DNA of 64,000 nt from Lentisphaerota bacterium (GTDB taxonomy: Bacteria; Verrucomicrobiota; Lentisphaeria; Victivallales; Victivallaceae). The notes beneath the pieces were generated by a model. The model saw only the letters and a program-made list of their open reading frames with translations, was not told where the DNA came from and did no database searches. The stretch covers positions 1-64,000 of the forward strand of contig SUWF01000007.1 of the NCBI GenBank assembly GCA_015061575.1. The letters are read 5' to 3'. The translations under genes and the position numbers were made by a program. This document shows, in pieces, positions 45,093 through 51,637 of this stretch (positions within the stretch are counted from its first letter, which is position 1; each line of letters opens with the position of its first letter).

Positions 45093-46178
45093 TCATTTTC
45101 CGTCAACTGAAAACGGCTTTTTAGCTTCCGGATGAGCGGCTAAATAATCACTTATTTCCTTTTCCAAAACCTTGCTCCAGACAAACCAATCGACCCAGTA
45201 GTTAAAGCGATTGCCTTCAACCGACAGCACCGGAGTACCTTCCGCTTTGCTGCCTTTGTAGAGTTTGGATCCATCCGCATTGATGCAGGCAATAGGTTCA
45301 GCACTCGTTGATCCGGCATAAATCAACCCTTTGCTGCCCATGTGCAGCAGCGGTTCACCTTCCACACCGGAACCGGAAATCAATGCGTACCGCACAATAT
45401 TCTGAGCAGTGCAAAGCGGCACAAAAGTTTTGTTTTTCAAATCAAAGAAATGGATTATATACGGTTTTTTTATTTTCTTTTTACCAACAGCGGCAAATTT
45501 ACCCAGACTTACAGCATACCGGGCCGCATTCGTATCATCTTTAAGCGCTTCACCTTCATAGATGAATCCATTGCGAAAGGTGTAAATAACCTTACCATCC
45601 TGCAGATATTTGGTGACAGCCTGCTTATTAAAGGGCAGCGAGAGTATATGTAATTTTACTTCCTTGACCTGAGGTTTCGGTGCAGAAAAGTCCAGGGGCT
45701 TAAATCCCAGATCATCAGCCAGATAATACTGGGCGGCAACAGTCAGCATCAAACCTGTCGGCAAATTACCGTTACGGAAGTTGGCAATACATTTGCTGCC
45801 TTTAAATAAAGCATTGTTTTTACAGACAGCAACGGCGCTGCTGCTGCCGGGCTTGTAAATATTGCCATTGCGGTATTCAAGAATGACTTTCCCCTGTTTG
45901 TTGACCAAACGATCAGGCGTGGAGTTTTTTAACTCCAACAGCCATCCACCCCGAATCGGCATGATCCGCCGGGTGTTTTCGTCATAACGAAAAATCCGGT
46001 TGGTCGTTGAACGGCCTTTACCCACCGTCCAATAAGGTTTATTGTACTCTACGGAAAATTTAACATCCGTACTGCCGTTACCGTTGCAGATTGTTACCAC
46101 CGGCGCTGCACCAAGTACCGTGCAACTCAGCAATATGAACAAGCTGTAAATAATATTCTTCATATTTTCAAATTTCAT
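45093..46178 (-). CDS. Secreted protein of unknown function with YxGS-type beta-repeats
   Basis: A 361-residue protein with signal peptide (hydrophobic to about residue 23, cut near LGA). The body has recurring short units that end in a Tyr/Phe-x-Gly turn: GNIYKPGS, NALFKGSKCIANFRNG, GFIYEGEALKD, GLIYAGSTSAEPIACINADGSKLYKGSKAEGTPVLSVEGNRF. The pattern resembles small beta-hairpin repeat domains, but I do not recognise the family. It follows the 190-residue gene by eight bases, and that product has the same YKG units. A second possible start lies at 46163. The SD is poor, so coupling is likely. Confidence 0.75.
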   Translation of the reverse strand: MKFENMKNIIYSLFILLSCTVLGAAPVVTICNGNGSTDVKFSVEYNKPYWTVGKGRSTTNRIFRYDENTRRIMPIRGGWLLELKNSTPDRLVNKQGKVILEYRNGNIYKPGSSSAVAVCKNNALFKGSKCIANFRNGNLPTGLMLTVAAQYYLADDLGFKPLDFSAPKPQVKEVKLHILSLPFNKQAVTKYLQDGKVIYTFRNGFIYEGEALKDDTNAARYAVSLGKFAAVGKKKIKKPYIIHFFDLKNKTFVPLCTAQNIVRYALISGSGVEGEPLLHMGSKGLIYAGSTSAEPIACINADGSKLYKGSKAEGTPVLSVEGNRFNYWVDWFVWSKVLEKEISDYLAAHPEAKKPFSVDGK

Positions 46179-46186
46179 TAAATTTT

Positions 46187-46759
46187 TTATTTTGCAAATT
46201 CAATTGCCATGAAAAGCAGTCTTGCGCCGTTAAAATTACCTGTCCAGTTAAGTACGCAATCTTTTTCGTCCGTGGAATCGCCACGGTACATCTTGCGATC
46301 TTTGATCGTATAAAGCGCCGTCATGGGAACAACTTTGCTGCCGTCTGACGAAAGATTGTAAGAGGTGATGATCTTTACGCCGCCTTTTTCATTTTTTTCT
46401 ACAAAATCACGGGCGACCACAAAACCCTTATAAATTTTGGCCTCAACAATATCGCCTCGCTTGGTTTTGGTTTCCACAATAGTTGCCAAACAGGAATTTT
46501 TGTCAATAGCAGCACCTTTGTAGATCCGGCCTCCGCTCAAGCGGTATAACGATTTTCCGTAAGGGATATTGGCTTCTTTGCCCACTTCATTGCCAGGATG
46601 ATTGAAAATCATGTTTTTGCAGGCGGCATCGCTATAAAATTTGCGGGATTTGTAGTAGCAAACAACATCTTTTTTAGCGCTGCCCTTATAAATGGAATCT
46701 GCAGCTACCGCTCCCATGATCATACCCATTGCCAGAATGCAAATCATGATTTTTTTCAT
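46187..46759 (-). CDS. Small secreted protein with IYKG repeats
   Basis: A 190-residue protein with signal peptide MKKIMICILAMGMIMGAVAA. The mature part has about four units built round YKG or YRG turns: DSIYKGSAKKDVVCYY, GGRIYKGAAIDKNSCLATI, EAKIYKGFVVARDFV and DRKMYRGDSTDEKDCVLNWTG. Each is followed by a hydrophobic strand, so a beta-propeller- or MORN-like arrangement is possible. No known function. AAGGA lies before the ATG and a consensus promoter lies at 46884-46912. It is the first gene of a two-gene operon with the 361-residue protein. Confidence 0.78.
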   Translation of the reverse strand: MKKIMICILAMGMIMGAVAADSIYKGSAKKDVVCYYKSRKFYSDAACKNMIFNHPGNEVGKEANIPYGKSLYRLSGGRIYKGAAIDKNSCLATIVETKTKRGDIVEAKIYKGFVVARDFVEKNEKGGVKIITSYNLSSDGSKVVPMTALYTIKDRKMYRGDSTDEKDCVLNWTGNFNGARLLFMAIEFAK

Positions 46760-47203: not shown

Positions 47204-48748
47204 TCAGACCAATACCAGATTGAGCATTTTTTCGGTAGCCTGGATCGCCGCCGCCAGCTGGTCACTGTCTACCCCAACGGTGATCAGCGGACGGTCATTT
47301 TCCCGCTCCCAGGTGATACGGGTTTCCACCAACGCATCGGTTTTACCGCCCGGCGGGATACGCACTTCGTAATCGCTGAGCTTCGGGAAGGTCTTGCCCA
47401 CACCTTTGAGCGCTTTGCGCAGCGCTTTTACAAACGCATCGTAGCCCCCGTCGCCGTTGGCACTGCCGTGGATAAGTTCATTTTCGTACTTCACAGCCAC
47501 GACCGAATGGGGCGTTACGCCGTGACGGGTTTCGATCTGATAATCCACGATCTGCACCTTGCCGGATATGGGCTGATTCAGCACGCTGCCGATCACGAAC
47601 GGCAGATCGGCGGCTGTGACCTGTTTTTTCTTATCGCCCAGACGGATGATTTCAGCCAGCACCCGTTTGCGCTGTTCGTCATCCAATTCAATTCCGATTT
47701 CCTCAAGATTTTTTTCCAGCGAGGCTTTGCCGGAAAGCTTGCCCAAGGCGTAGATGCGGTTGCGGCTGAAACGCTCCGGCAGCAATTTATTGGCGTAAAG
47801 ATCGCCCTTTTTGTCGCCGTCGGCATGAACTCCGCAAGTTTGGGTAAATACGTCAGAACCGATCACCGGCGTGTTCCATGCACAGCGTTTGCCGGAGAGC
47901 GTCTGCACCAGACTGCTGACATAGAGCAGCTGTTTTTCGGCAATCTTGATCTTGCGGTCGGTCATATCCTGCACCGCCACGGTCAGCGTAGGCAGCGGCT
48001 GATTGCCGGTGCGTTCACCCAAGCCGTTGATCGTGGTATGCACCCCGGAAACCCCGGCTTTGATCGCCGCAATGCTGTTGGCCGTTACCATGCCATAATC
48101 GTTATGGCCGTGGAAATCCACCTTCAAATCCGGGAACGCTGCAAAGATCCACTCCATATAGCAGCTGACTTCATCCGGCGTCAGCACGCCCAGCGTGTCC
48201 GGCAGCATTATCCGCTCGACCGGCAAATTCTGCAGCATTTTTATGAAGTTATACACATAACCGAAGTCATCCCGGGTGCCGTTTGACCAGTCTTCCAAAT
48301 AGACATTCACAGTCAATCCCAGCCGGTGCGCAAGTTCAATTTCCTCTGCGACCTTCCGATAGTGTGCTTCCGGTGTGCTGCGCAGCTGGATGCGGCAATG
48401 TTTTTCGGAGCCTTTGGCCAGCAGATTTATTACTTTGCCGCCAACATCACAAACCCAGTTGGCAGATTTTCCGCCATCAATGAAGCCCAGAATCTCCATC
48501 CGCTCCAGCACACCATGTTTTTCCGCCCATTCCAGAATATTGCGCACACCGATGCGTTCACCTTCAGAAACTCTTGCGGAACCGATTTCCACCCGATCAA
48601 CTTTGGCACGCAAGATCAACGCCTTGGCGATCTGGAGTTTCTCAGCGGGGGTAAACGCTACCCCCGGCGTCTGTTCTCCGTCCCGCAAAGTCGTATCCAG
48701 AATCTCAACGTATGCACTTTTGTTTTTTTTCTGTCCGCTTGCGTTCAT
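47204..48748 (-). CDS. Alpha-isopropylmalate synthase-like enzyme (LeuA/CimA family)
   Basis: A 514-residue Claisen-condensing enzyme of the DRE-TIM family. VEILDTTLRDGEQTPGVAF at residues 14-32 carries the catalytic Arg and metal Asp, DFHGHNDYGMVTANSIAAIKAG near 205 the HxH metal site, and GVHTTINGLGERTGNQPL near 230 a conserved glycine motif. Residues about 385-514 match the LeuA allosteric domain. The form with DRVEIGSARVSEGE and FIDGGKSANWV resembles a Bacteroidetes-type variant, so 2-isopropylmalate, citramalate or a related product is possible. It lies 26 bases after the tandem FabZ gene, an unusual partner. Confidence 0.88.
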   Translation of the reverse strand: MNASGQKKNKSAYVEILDTTLRDGEQTPGVAFTPAEKLQIAKALILRAKVDRVEIGSARVSEGERIGVRNILEWAEKHGVLERMEILGFIDGGKSANWVCDVGGKVINLLAKGSEKHCRIQLRSTPEAHYRKVAEEIELAHRLGLTVNVYLEDWSNGTRDDFGYVYNFIKMLQNLPVERIMLPDTLGVLTPDEVSCYMEWIFAAFPDLKVDFHGHNDYGMVTANSIAAIKAGVSGVHTTINGLGERTGNQPLPTLTVAVQDMTDRKIKIAEKQLLYVSSLVQTLSGKRCAWNTPVIGSDVFTQTCGVHADGDKKGDLYANKLLPERFSRNRIYALGKLSGKASLEKNLEEIGIELDDEQRKRVLAEIIRLGDKKKQVTAADLPFVIGSVLNQPISGKVQIVDYQIETRHGVTPHSVVAVKYENELIHGSANGDGGYDAFVKALRKALKGVGKTFPKLSDYEVRIPPGGKTDALVETRITWERENDRPLITVGVDSDQLAAAIQATEKMLNLVLV

Positions 48749-48774: not shown

Positions 48775-49704
48775 TTACGCAGGATCGACGATCGCAAACA
48801 TCAGCGAGCTGGTAAAGACCAGTTTGCCGTCCACATAGATCTTGCCGGTGCCTTTGCCGAAAGATTTGCGGGCCGGCGGCAGATCCACATCCACCACCAG
48901 CTGATCGCCGGGATAGACCGGCGCAAAGGATTCAGCATCCATCAAAGCGGCAAATAAGCCCAGCTTGCCGGCATTTTCCGGACGGGCCAGCACACAGGCG
49001 CAGCCCGCCTGAGCCATGATTTCGCACAGAATGCTTTCGGGCATGATCGCATAATCTTCGGCTGCGTGCATAAACATAGCTTCGCCGCCGGTCAGATTTT
49101 TGACCGCCACCGCCTTGGTTTCTTCCATCTTGCTGATACCATCGATCAGCAGGAAGGGGAACCGGTGAGGCATAACGGCAATAACGTCGCCGATTTCCTT
49201 GGCATAGCCGCTAGAGCGGTCATATTCGTTGAAAAGCTGCGGCATGGCCGTGGGGGCACTCTTGGCACGCATTTTGAGCGTAAACTGCGCTTCGCAGGTA
49301 ATGCCGCCGGAGTTGGAAACAGTTCCGGTGATGGAGGCTGCGCCATCTTCAATACCATTGACCGTGATTTCCACCTTGGCCCGGTCGCCGGGGACGTTGG
49401 GATTGCGGAATTTGGCTTTGGAAAGTTTCCACAGATAAACATCGCCCTTGTTTTCGGGATCAAGTTCGCCGCGCACGGCGATTTCGGCCAGCTGCTTCAT
49501 AGCTTCGACCTGCAGCACGCCCGGCATGATCGGGTGTCCCGGGAAGTGTCCCTGGAAAAACGGTTCGTTGATACTGAGATTTTTGACCCCGATCAGGTGG
49601 TTGGGTTCCAGAACCTGAACCCGGTCAAGCATCAAATTGGGGTTGCGGTGCGGCAAAATGGCTTTGATCGCACTCAAATCGAGAATTTGGTTGGCTTGCA
49701 GCAT
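48775..49704 (-). CDS. Tandem FabZ-like hot-dog protein, second half degenerate
   Basis: A 309-residue protein made of two 3-hydroxyacyl-ACP dehydratase domains. Domain 1 (1-150) has the catalytic His53 in [14 protein letters not shown] and Glu67 in VLQVEAMKQ, so it should dehydrate 3-hydroxyacyl-ACP. Domain 2 (about 165-309) aligns through [12 protein letters not shown] and [16 protein letters not shown]. It keeps Glu228 but has Ala214 at the His position and Glu in place of the conserved Gly after Pro, so it is probably inactive. The ATG at 49704 follows AGAGG; an upstream in-frame extension is not supported. It lies 32 bases after lpxC. Confidence 0.9.
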
Positions 49705-49736: not shown

Positions 49737-50585
49737 TTACTGCTGTTTGGCTATTTCCTGCATGATCGATGCGGCCAGCTCCGTATTGCGGTGATGACCG
49801 GGCTTGACGGCAATAACGTGACCATTCACCCGGCGCCCGCACAAATACAGATCGCCGATCAAATCCAATATCTTGTGCCGGACGATCTCATTTTCGTAGC
49901 GCAGACCATCTTTGCAGACGATTGCTCCGTCGTGGATGATTTCGGCATTATCCAGACTGCCGCCTTTGCACAAGCCCATGGCAATAAGTGCGCCCAGATC
50001 CCGGTAATCCACAAAGGTGCGGGCGCCGCAAATATCCTGATCAAAACTTCCGGCAGTTACAACTATATCCAAAAACTGCGGATCGATCGGGCAGCCTTTG
50101 AAAGATGTAGTGCAGCTTACACGCAGTTCCGGCTGTTCGTTGGGCAGCAGCACCAGCGAAGTAACTCCGGCATCCACAAAAAGCGCCCGGCTGGGATTAA
50201 AATACTTTGCTTCGGCATCCTGTTCAATGGTTCCGGCGGCTTTGAGTACCTCCCAGAACGGCAGACTGCTGCCATCGGCGATCGGCGGCTCCGGCCCATC
50301 CATTTCGATAACACAGTTATCGATCTGCATGGCGTGCAAAGCAGCCATGATGTGTTCAACGGTGTGCGCTACACAAGCGCCTTCGCCAATGGTAGTACCC
50401 CGCCGGACGTCCACGACTTTGCTGGCCAGGGCAGCGACTTCGGGTTTTCCCGGCAAATCGACCCGCCGGAAAACGATACCGCTGTTGATTTCAGCCGGCA
50501 AAAAACGCAGCGTCGAGCGCACGCCGGTATGCAACGCTATGCCCGAAAAGAGGGCAATTTCACGCAATGTTTGCTGTTTATTCAT
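49737..50585 (-). CDS. lpxC: UDP-3-O-acyl-N-acetylglucosamine deacetylase
   Basis: The committed step of lipid A synthesis: removal of acetyl from UDP-3-O-acyl-GlcNAc. A 282-residue protein with SGIALHTGVRSTLRFLP near 14, the zinc ligand in AHTVEHIMAAL (His78), VRHKILDLIGDLYLCGRR near 237 with the other ligands and GHHRNTELAASI near 264 with the catalytic His. In Bacteroidetes and Chlorobi LpxC is fused to FabZ; here the two are separate but adjacent genes. It marks a Gram-negative with lipopolysaccharide. The start has little SD; overlapping divergent promoters lie upstream. Confidence 0.96.
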   Translation of the reverse strand: MNKQQTLREIALFSGIALHTGVRSTLRFLPAEINSGIVFRRVDLPGKPEVAALASKVVDVRRGTTIGEGACVAHTVEHIMAALHAMQIDNCVIEMDGPEPPIADGSSLPFWEVLKAAGTIEQDAEAKYFNPSRALFVDAGVTSLVLLPNEQPELRVSCTTSFKGCPIDPQFLDIVVTAGSFDQDICGARTFVDYRDLGALIAMGLCKGGSLDNAEIIHDGAIVCKDGLRYENEIVRHKILDLIGDLYLCGRRVNGHVIAVKPGHHRNTELAASIMQEIAKQQ

Positions 50586-50668: not shown

Positions 50669-51637
50669 ATGAGTTTTTTTCCCGAAACAATTGTTGTAAC
50701 CGGGCCGACAGCAACCGGCAAAACCGCTTTGGCTGTCCGTTTGGCGGAAATTTTCAATGGCGAAATCGTCAGTGTTGATTCCCGCCAGGTTTTCCGTCAC
50801 ATGGATGTTGGCTCCGGTAAAGATCTTGCTGAATACGGCAGTGTGCCGTATCATCTGATCGATGTGGCCGATCCCGGCACTCCCTACGATCTGTTTACCT
50901 ATCTTGAGCAGGCCCAGGCTGCAATCAGAAATATTGCCTCCCGGGGGCGACTGCCGATTTTGTGCGGCGGTACGACCATGTATCTGGATGCGCTGCTGCG
51001 GGGATATGCTCTGCAAGGGGCGCCGCCGGATGCAGCGTTGCGGCAGGAGTTGGATCAACTGCCGCTGGCTGAGCTGAATAAAAAATTAGATGAGCTGGCG
51101 CCGGCTGATTTGGCGGAGTTCAAAGACCGCTGCAACCCGCTGCGGGTACGCCGGGCGATAGAAAATGCTTTGAGCTGCGGCCGCTGCGGCTGCGTGAAAA
51201 ACTCCGGCGCCCTGCTGGCCAACAGTCTGATCATTGGTGTATACTTTCCCCGTCCGGAAGTACATAAGCGAGTGGAGATCCGGCTGGATGAGCGGCTGAA
51301 AAATGGCATGATCGAAGAAATCAAAGCTCTGCACGATGTGCATAATGTCAGTTTTGAAGCCCTTGACCGCTACGGTTTGGAATACCGCTACGTTGCCCGT
51401 TATCTGCAAGGTTTGATGGATTATCAGACCATGCGCAACACGCTGCTTTACAGCATACGGAAATTCGTCAAGCGACAGGATATATGGTTCCGGAAAATGG
51501 AGCGGGAAAATATCAATATACATTGGATCCCGCGCGGCGACATAAATGAAGCCGGCGAGCTGGTCAGAAAATTCCTGGCGCATCAGGAACTGCCGCCCAG
51601 CCCCATAAAATTATCTGAAATATTTTACGGCAAGTAA
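50669..51637 (+). CDS. miaA: tRNA dimethylallyltransferase
   Basis: Transfers the dimethylallyl group to adenosine 37 of tRNAs that read U-starting codons. A 322-residue protein with P-loop VVTGPTATGKTALAVRLAE (9-27), the catalytic Asp in IVSVDSRQVFRHMDVGSGK near 35-53, VPYHLIDVADP near 60, LPILCGGTTMYLDALLRG near 97 and the late FVKRQDIWFRKM. Family length is normal. It stands alone on the plus strand, divergent from lpxC. Confidence 0.96.
   Translation: MSFFPETIVVTGPTATGKTALAVRLAEIFNGEIVSVDSRQVFRHMDVGSGKDLAEYGSVPYHLIDVADPGTPYDLFTYLEQAQAAIRNIASRGRLPILCGGTTMYLDALLRGYALQGAPPDAALRQELDQLPLAELNKKLDELAPADLAEFKDRCNPLRVRRAIENALSCGRCGCVKNSGALLANSLIIGVYFPRPEVHKRVEIRLDERLKNGMIEEIKALHDVHNVSFEALDRYGLEYRYVARYLQGLMDYQTMRNTLLYSIRKFVKRQDIWFRKMERENINIHWIPRGDINEAGELVRKFLAHQELPPSPIKLSEIFYGK

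Follow-up and report, generated by a model that had tools for sequence, protein, structure and literature searches.

A tandem FabZ of the Lentisphaeria: a probable intrachain dimer with a single composite active site

The window analysed here, a stretch of 64,000 nucleotides from a Lentisphaerota bacterium (contig SUWF01000007.1), encodes on its minus strand a 309-residue tandem FabZ (48775-49704, ATG start at 49704) that very probably folds as a dimer within one chain and has a single composite active site, formed by His53 of the first domain (D1) and Glu228 of the second (D2). FabZ ordinarily has a single hotdog domain per chain and forms homodimers or hexamers with equivalent sites. The tandem would be the housekeeping β-hydroxyacyl-ACP dehydratase of FAS-II in the form of a single-chain pseudodimer, D1 and D2 packing as paired FabZ subunits do and only one of the two possible sites surviving. 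A class-wide conversion of this essential FAS-II enzyme to an obligate single-chain, one-site heterodimer, independent of the PKS/FAS dehydratases, is well supported.

The open reading frame contains two stretches that match PF07977, the only Pfam family found in the protein (whole-protein E-value 2.2e-33, window 48775-49704). The protein passes the curated NCBIfam models for FabZ, TIGR01750 (203.2 against a cut-off of 155.15) and NF000582 (215.7 against 113), and fails the FabA model (25.1 against 238). D1 (residues 1-146; 49267-49704, minus strand) is the His side and keeps FxGHFP...PGV; the codon of its catalytic His53 lies at 49546-49548 and that of Glu67 at 49504-49506, both on the minus strand. 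D2 (residues 164-309; 48778-49215, minus strand) is the Glu and tunnel side, keeping PHR-P-F, Phe251 and the catalytic Glu228 (49021-49023, minus strand), which is followed by Gln232 in an E-x-x-x-Q arrangement. Its GHFP loop is lost: at residues 213-216 (49057-49068, minus strand) His-Ala-Ala-Glu stands in place of Gly-His-Phe-Pro, so that Ala214 occupies the His position, and Glu223 replaces the Gly after Pro. The first-pass annotation had described a FabZ-FabZ fusion with a dead second domain; the fusion is borne out, and the residues it named (His53, Glu67, Glu228, the Ala at the D2 His position and the lost Gly) are all correct.

How the two halves divide the enzyme between them is best seen by aligning both with 78 single FabZ domains, a check proposed at the first pass. 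Columns conserved in at least 90% of the single FabZs prove to be split, with F50, G52, H53, F54, P55, P58, G62 and V63 kept chiefly in D1, and P179, H180, R181, F184, A231, F251 and V291 chiefly in D2. The pattern was followed through 113 distinct tandems, of which family f43 contributes four and the class Lentisphaeria (or records so labelled) 109. His53 and Glu228 are present in all of them (113/113 each, 109/109 each in the class). D1 retains the motif F-x-GHFP...P-x-x-PGV, and D2 retains PHR-P-F, Ala231 and Phe251 (97%), with Glu228, His180, Arg181, Pro183, Phe184 and Leu239 invariant; that invariance rules out D2 as an unconstrained remnant. Gln71/Gln232, Gly106/Gly266 and Asp27/Asp188 stay in both halves, and residues kept in this way, such as the Gln and Gly pairs, are expected to be structural.

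In crystal structures of FabZ, one subunit gives the His of the site and its partner the Glu. In the FabZ of H. pylori the active site consists of His58 and Glu72' of the other subunit, and the acyl tunnel is lined by Pro22, His23, Phe83, Ile98, Val99, Tyr100 and Phe101 on the Glu side and by Phe59', Lys62', Ile64' and Pro112' on the partner side (PMC2692856). The Tyr-Pro loop lines the tunnel, whereas the His-Phe peptide bears the catalytic His (PMC2698920). Mapped onto the H. pylori numbering by alignment and spacing, the Glu-side list is kept by D2 and the partner-side list by D1. Thus, D1 (His) and D2 (Glu) would make up one complete site, while the mirror site is broken from both ends. 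At the column of tunnel residue Phe83, D2 has Leu in 113/113 and D1 mostly Arg, Lys or Trp.

These assignments suggest a mechanism in which D1 would give the cap loop with the base, His53, and the PGV turn. D2 would give the acid, Glu228, positioned by Gln232, together with the acyl tunnel (His180-Arg181...Phe184, Leu239 and Phe251). The mirror site, made of D1 Glu67 and the D2 loop, would have decayed. Three such pseudodimers may assemble into a trimer, each chain serving one ACP. We infer the dehydratase catalysis itself, the joint use and proximity of His53 and Glu228 within the chain, the binding of one ACP per chain and the oligomeric state.

The chief rival is that D2 is a dead pseudo-subunit which affects only assembly or regulation, the activity coming from D1-D1' sites between chains (His53 with Glu67'). 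This would suit the window protein, whose D1 retains both His53 and Glu67 and whose D2 has no His loop, but the relatives make it very unlikely. Glu67 is kept in 86 of the 113 tandems; the other 27, all of them among the 109 class members, have Ala, Gly, Ser, Met or Thr instead, whereas Glu228 is never lost. Comparing 27/113 with 0/113 by a Fisher test yields 2.6e-9, though the rows lack independence and the count of events on the tree is the better guide. That count is at least two, one event in a deep clade of 26 rows (with the Glu in one member) and another in a pair from family f13, with three changes in an undirected reconstruction. Moreover, the His of PHR is left in the D1 of only 7/113 and the tunnel Phe in 0/113, while D2 keeps both. 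A D2 that is dead in the catalytic sense is therefore not supported, given Glu228 in 113/113 and the tunnel residues in the same domain, although it is true that D2 cannot be a complete FabZ subunit.

Conversely, both composite sites might be active, the missing D2 His being replaced by the neighbouring His213 or by another residue. His213 lies directly beside Ala214, where a His is expected, and is present throughout the window's genus; in addition, the f43 tandems have both motifs intact. Across the 113 tandems, however, any His at all occurs in just 34 D2 loops, at shifting positions; the loop is shortened in many, the G-F-P framework is gone, and D1 is without matching tunnel residues. We consider this reading extremely improbable, and a displaced functional His in D2, which the first-pass annotation had listed among the findings that could overturn it, is ruled out as a feature of the family. 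A GHx motif in D2 is found in 5/113, that is, in 4/4 from f43 and in 1/109 of the others, the lone class member being L167 (GHS). In three single species (L167, L187 and L210) a solitary His stands in or close to the D2 catalytic column, often occupied by Tyr in their relatives; these cases are probably drift.

As a counterpoint to the single composite site, Glu67 is still found in the window protein and in 82/109 class members, and these, like L167, may have a weak second site. In a deep mutational scan of E. coli fabZ, viable substitutions were reported at H54 and E68, a result that its authors treat with caution (PMC9842644). Because of these substitutions, activity can be read from the His/Glu dyad only imperfectly.

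Two genomes bring the question to a point. In G037, assembled as a single contig, the tandem is the sole FabA/FabZ-family locus over the cut-off, and remains so even at E<=1; a search for PF01575 (MaoC-family) gave no match in this genome, and fabF is present. Its D1 reads GHFP...LQVAAMAQ, with the His and without the Glu, whereas D2 lacks the His and has the Glu. The draft genome G017 shows the same pattern. Since the only FabZ of G037 has its His in D1 alone and its Glu in D2 alone, its site, judged from the sequence, must be composite, unless an unrelated enzyme took over the dehydration step. This FabZ could not operate by sites between one D1 and another, as a dead D2 would demand.

An AlphaFold2 model of the window protein, computed with ten window/Lentisphaeria sequences, has a mean pLDDT of 83.5 and a pTM of 0.85; confidence drops over residues 51-60 and in the linker (around 151-180). 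Its best full-length PDB match is 2cf2_C (TM 0.81 by query length), a dehydratase chain of 342 residues from an early model of animal FAS; 2cf2_C also matches FabA-like sequence. Next come the PKS dehydratases (DHs) GphF, RzxB and CurK (TM 0.54-0.58 by query length) and double hotdogs of the TesB type. Single FabZ chains cover just one half of the model. On these matches, the prediction is that the tandem chain forms a dimer within itself. Predicted with good confidence, this intrachain pseudodimer is a further point against a dead D2 with sites between chains. Together with the partition of residues between D1 and D2, it fits the built-in pseudo-subunit pictured at the first pass, which had also proposed the structure prediction.

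The tandem is the sole FabA/FabZ-family gene found in the window's genome: apart from its own two stretches there is no other PF07977 match, and a PF01575 (MaoC-family) search of the whole genome gave no match. fabF is present. As the genome is a draft, about 94% complete, these absences are strong rather than absolute. They bear on a third reading, in which the tandem is not the general FAS-II dehydratase but a specialist, either enzyme or regulator, with a role linked to lipid A. What speaks for such a role is the neighbour: lpxC (49737-50585, minus strand) lies directly upstream on the same strand, 32 bases away, and adjoins the tandem in this way in 84/120 tandem loci, a figure lowered by contig ends and divergence. 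Yet a genome with fabF and no other FabA/FabZ or MaoC-family gene found is difficult to reconcile with it, and other bacteria also combine lpxC and fabZ, some even in a fusion (NCBIfam PRK13188). We regard a lipid A specialist as highly unlikely. Somewhat less so, but still improbable, is that the conversion to a one-site heterodimer was accompanied by re-use of the vacated second site, for example as a sensor of acyl-ACP or of a lipid A precursor that balances fatty acid against LPS synthesis.

Here lpxC and the tandem are separate open reading frames, which rules out an LpxC-FabZ fusion. The likeness to the bifunctional PRK13188 proteins lies in having lpxC and fabZ together; the differences are the separate frames, a score under the cut-off of that model and a FabZ that is itself doubled. 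Downstream of the tandem lies a gene of the citramalate/isopropylmalate-synthase family (47204-48748, minus strand), whose best match is the Leptospira CimA model (626 bits, below the cut-off of 950), so the gene does stand between lpxC and a leuA-like gene, as first described. The downstream gene is probably unrelated to the tandem because it adjoins it in just 3/120 loci, a count that speaks against a link. Upstream of lpxC is a divergent miaA-like gene (50669-51637, plus strand), an arrangement repeated in 61/120 tandem loci. Two further frames of the window (45093-46178 and 46187-46759, minus strand) have signal-peptide-like N termini and repeated IYKG/YKGS segments, and appear by eye to be related to each other.

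Nearly all of the class Lentisphaeria has the tandem FabZ, in most cases with lpxC immediately before it. A FabA/FabZ match occurs in 182/198 genomes of the class, mostly in an open frame of ~310 residues, and this ~310-residue tandem recurs in over 110 distinct proteins of different species. This class-wide conservation rules out an assembly artefact or frameshift, the other possibility that the first pass had held open. The first pass had also suggested a search for tandem FabZ in PVC genomes. Within the phylum, the tandem profile has full-length matches throughout the class; among the sampled genomes outside the class, family f43 alone has them. The other listed members of the phylum match as one FabZ domain, in some cases within a frame as long as LpxC-FabZ. 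Other phyla were covered by a scan of genome contigs, for which the distribution given here is that among the matches listed. One record, L039 (JAIPIM010000134.1), is labelled Candidatus Paceibacterota, has a tandem of the Lentisphaeria type and groups with class sequences in the tree; it is probably from a mislabelled or contaminated bin. Three genomes of family f11 (G003, G004 and G005; e.g. L006 and L007) have pairs of FabA-family domains in frames of 1500-2300 residues, which are probably polyunsaturated fatty acid synthase genes in the class.

In the order of f43, 6/10 genomes have the tandem, and 5 of those 6 also have a separate single-FabZ match. The f43 loci (L228-L231, L263-L268) resemble the two-site ancestor state of the tandem, with His and Glu kept in both halves where read (L228-L231). 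In a quick domain tree built on a short alignment, the D1 of f43 groups with the D1 of the class (support 94) and its D2 with the D2 of the class (98). Because each half groups with its counterpart, the fusion has a single origin, with f43 sister to the class. The simplest order of events begins with fusion; the class would then have lost the D2 His, and some lineages later the D1 Glu. The f43 tandem with both sites is a plausible intermediate.

The conversion can be traced within primary metabolism, from a single FabZ through a two-site fusion (f43) to loss of the D2 His and, in some, of the D1 Glu as well. From this series one can test directly why a site is given up where there are two, and which residues form which half-site. 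It also carries a warning for annotation, since second domains like D2, without the His, may still hold an essential-looking residue and are not to be called dead.

The double-hotdog dehydratases of PKS and animal FAS are thought to be products of gene duplication, their halves having diverged beyond easy comparison. A composite site with a split dyad is known from PKS; no description of a FabZ in tandem, fused or duplicated form turned up in a literature search, a weak result given that most subscription papers lay outside it. With FabZ (TIGR01750; H. pylori, P. aeruginosa and E. coli) the tandem shares the sequence family, the fold of each half, the His...Glu dyad across two hotdogs and the FAS-II context. 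It differs in having two diverged domains in one chain instead of a single hotdog, probably with one site. The GHFP His with a Glu 14 residues later, found in each FabZ subunit, is present in D1 of the window protein and absent from D2.

Other one-site dehydratases and hydratases are arranged differently. ApeI/ApeP of the aryl polyene clusters is a two-chain dehydratase with one site that takes the place of FabZ (PMC8041823), but it is a heterodimer of separate chains and belongs to secondary metabolism. Eukaryotic hydratase 2 (MFE-2) and mycobacterial HadAB are also double hotdogs, fused or heterodimeric, that have lost one site; in these, both catalytic residues lie on one half (PMC2698920, PMC4491049). 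The other half of these MaoC-type enzymes binds the acyl chain, whereas the tandem splits the dyad between its halves.

In arrangement the tandem resembles the PKS and animal-FAS DHs, in which the N-terminal hotdog gives the His, the acid sits on the acid-x-x-x-Gln helix of the other, and each chain has one site. In modular PKS DHs, one half of the double hotdog provides the His and the other an acid that is kept in place by the Gln four positions after it (PMC3422181, PMC9135731). The tandem likewise has its His in the N-terminal half (His53, 113/113) and its acid in the C-terminal half (Glu228, 113/113), and in the predicted model one chain forms a two-hotdog pseudodimer. Its acid, however, is a Glu (Glu228-x-x-x-Gln232) and not the Asp of D-x-x-x-Q, and Pfam finds PF07977 only, with no match to the PKS DH family. 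Unlike the PKS and FAS enzymes, the tandem is free-standing and built from FabZ, and its halves are still clearly similar in sequence.
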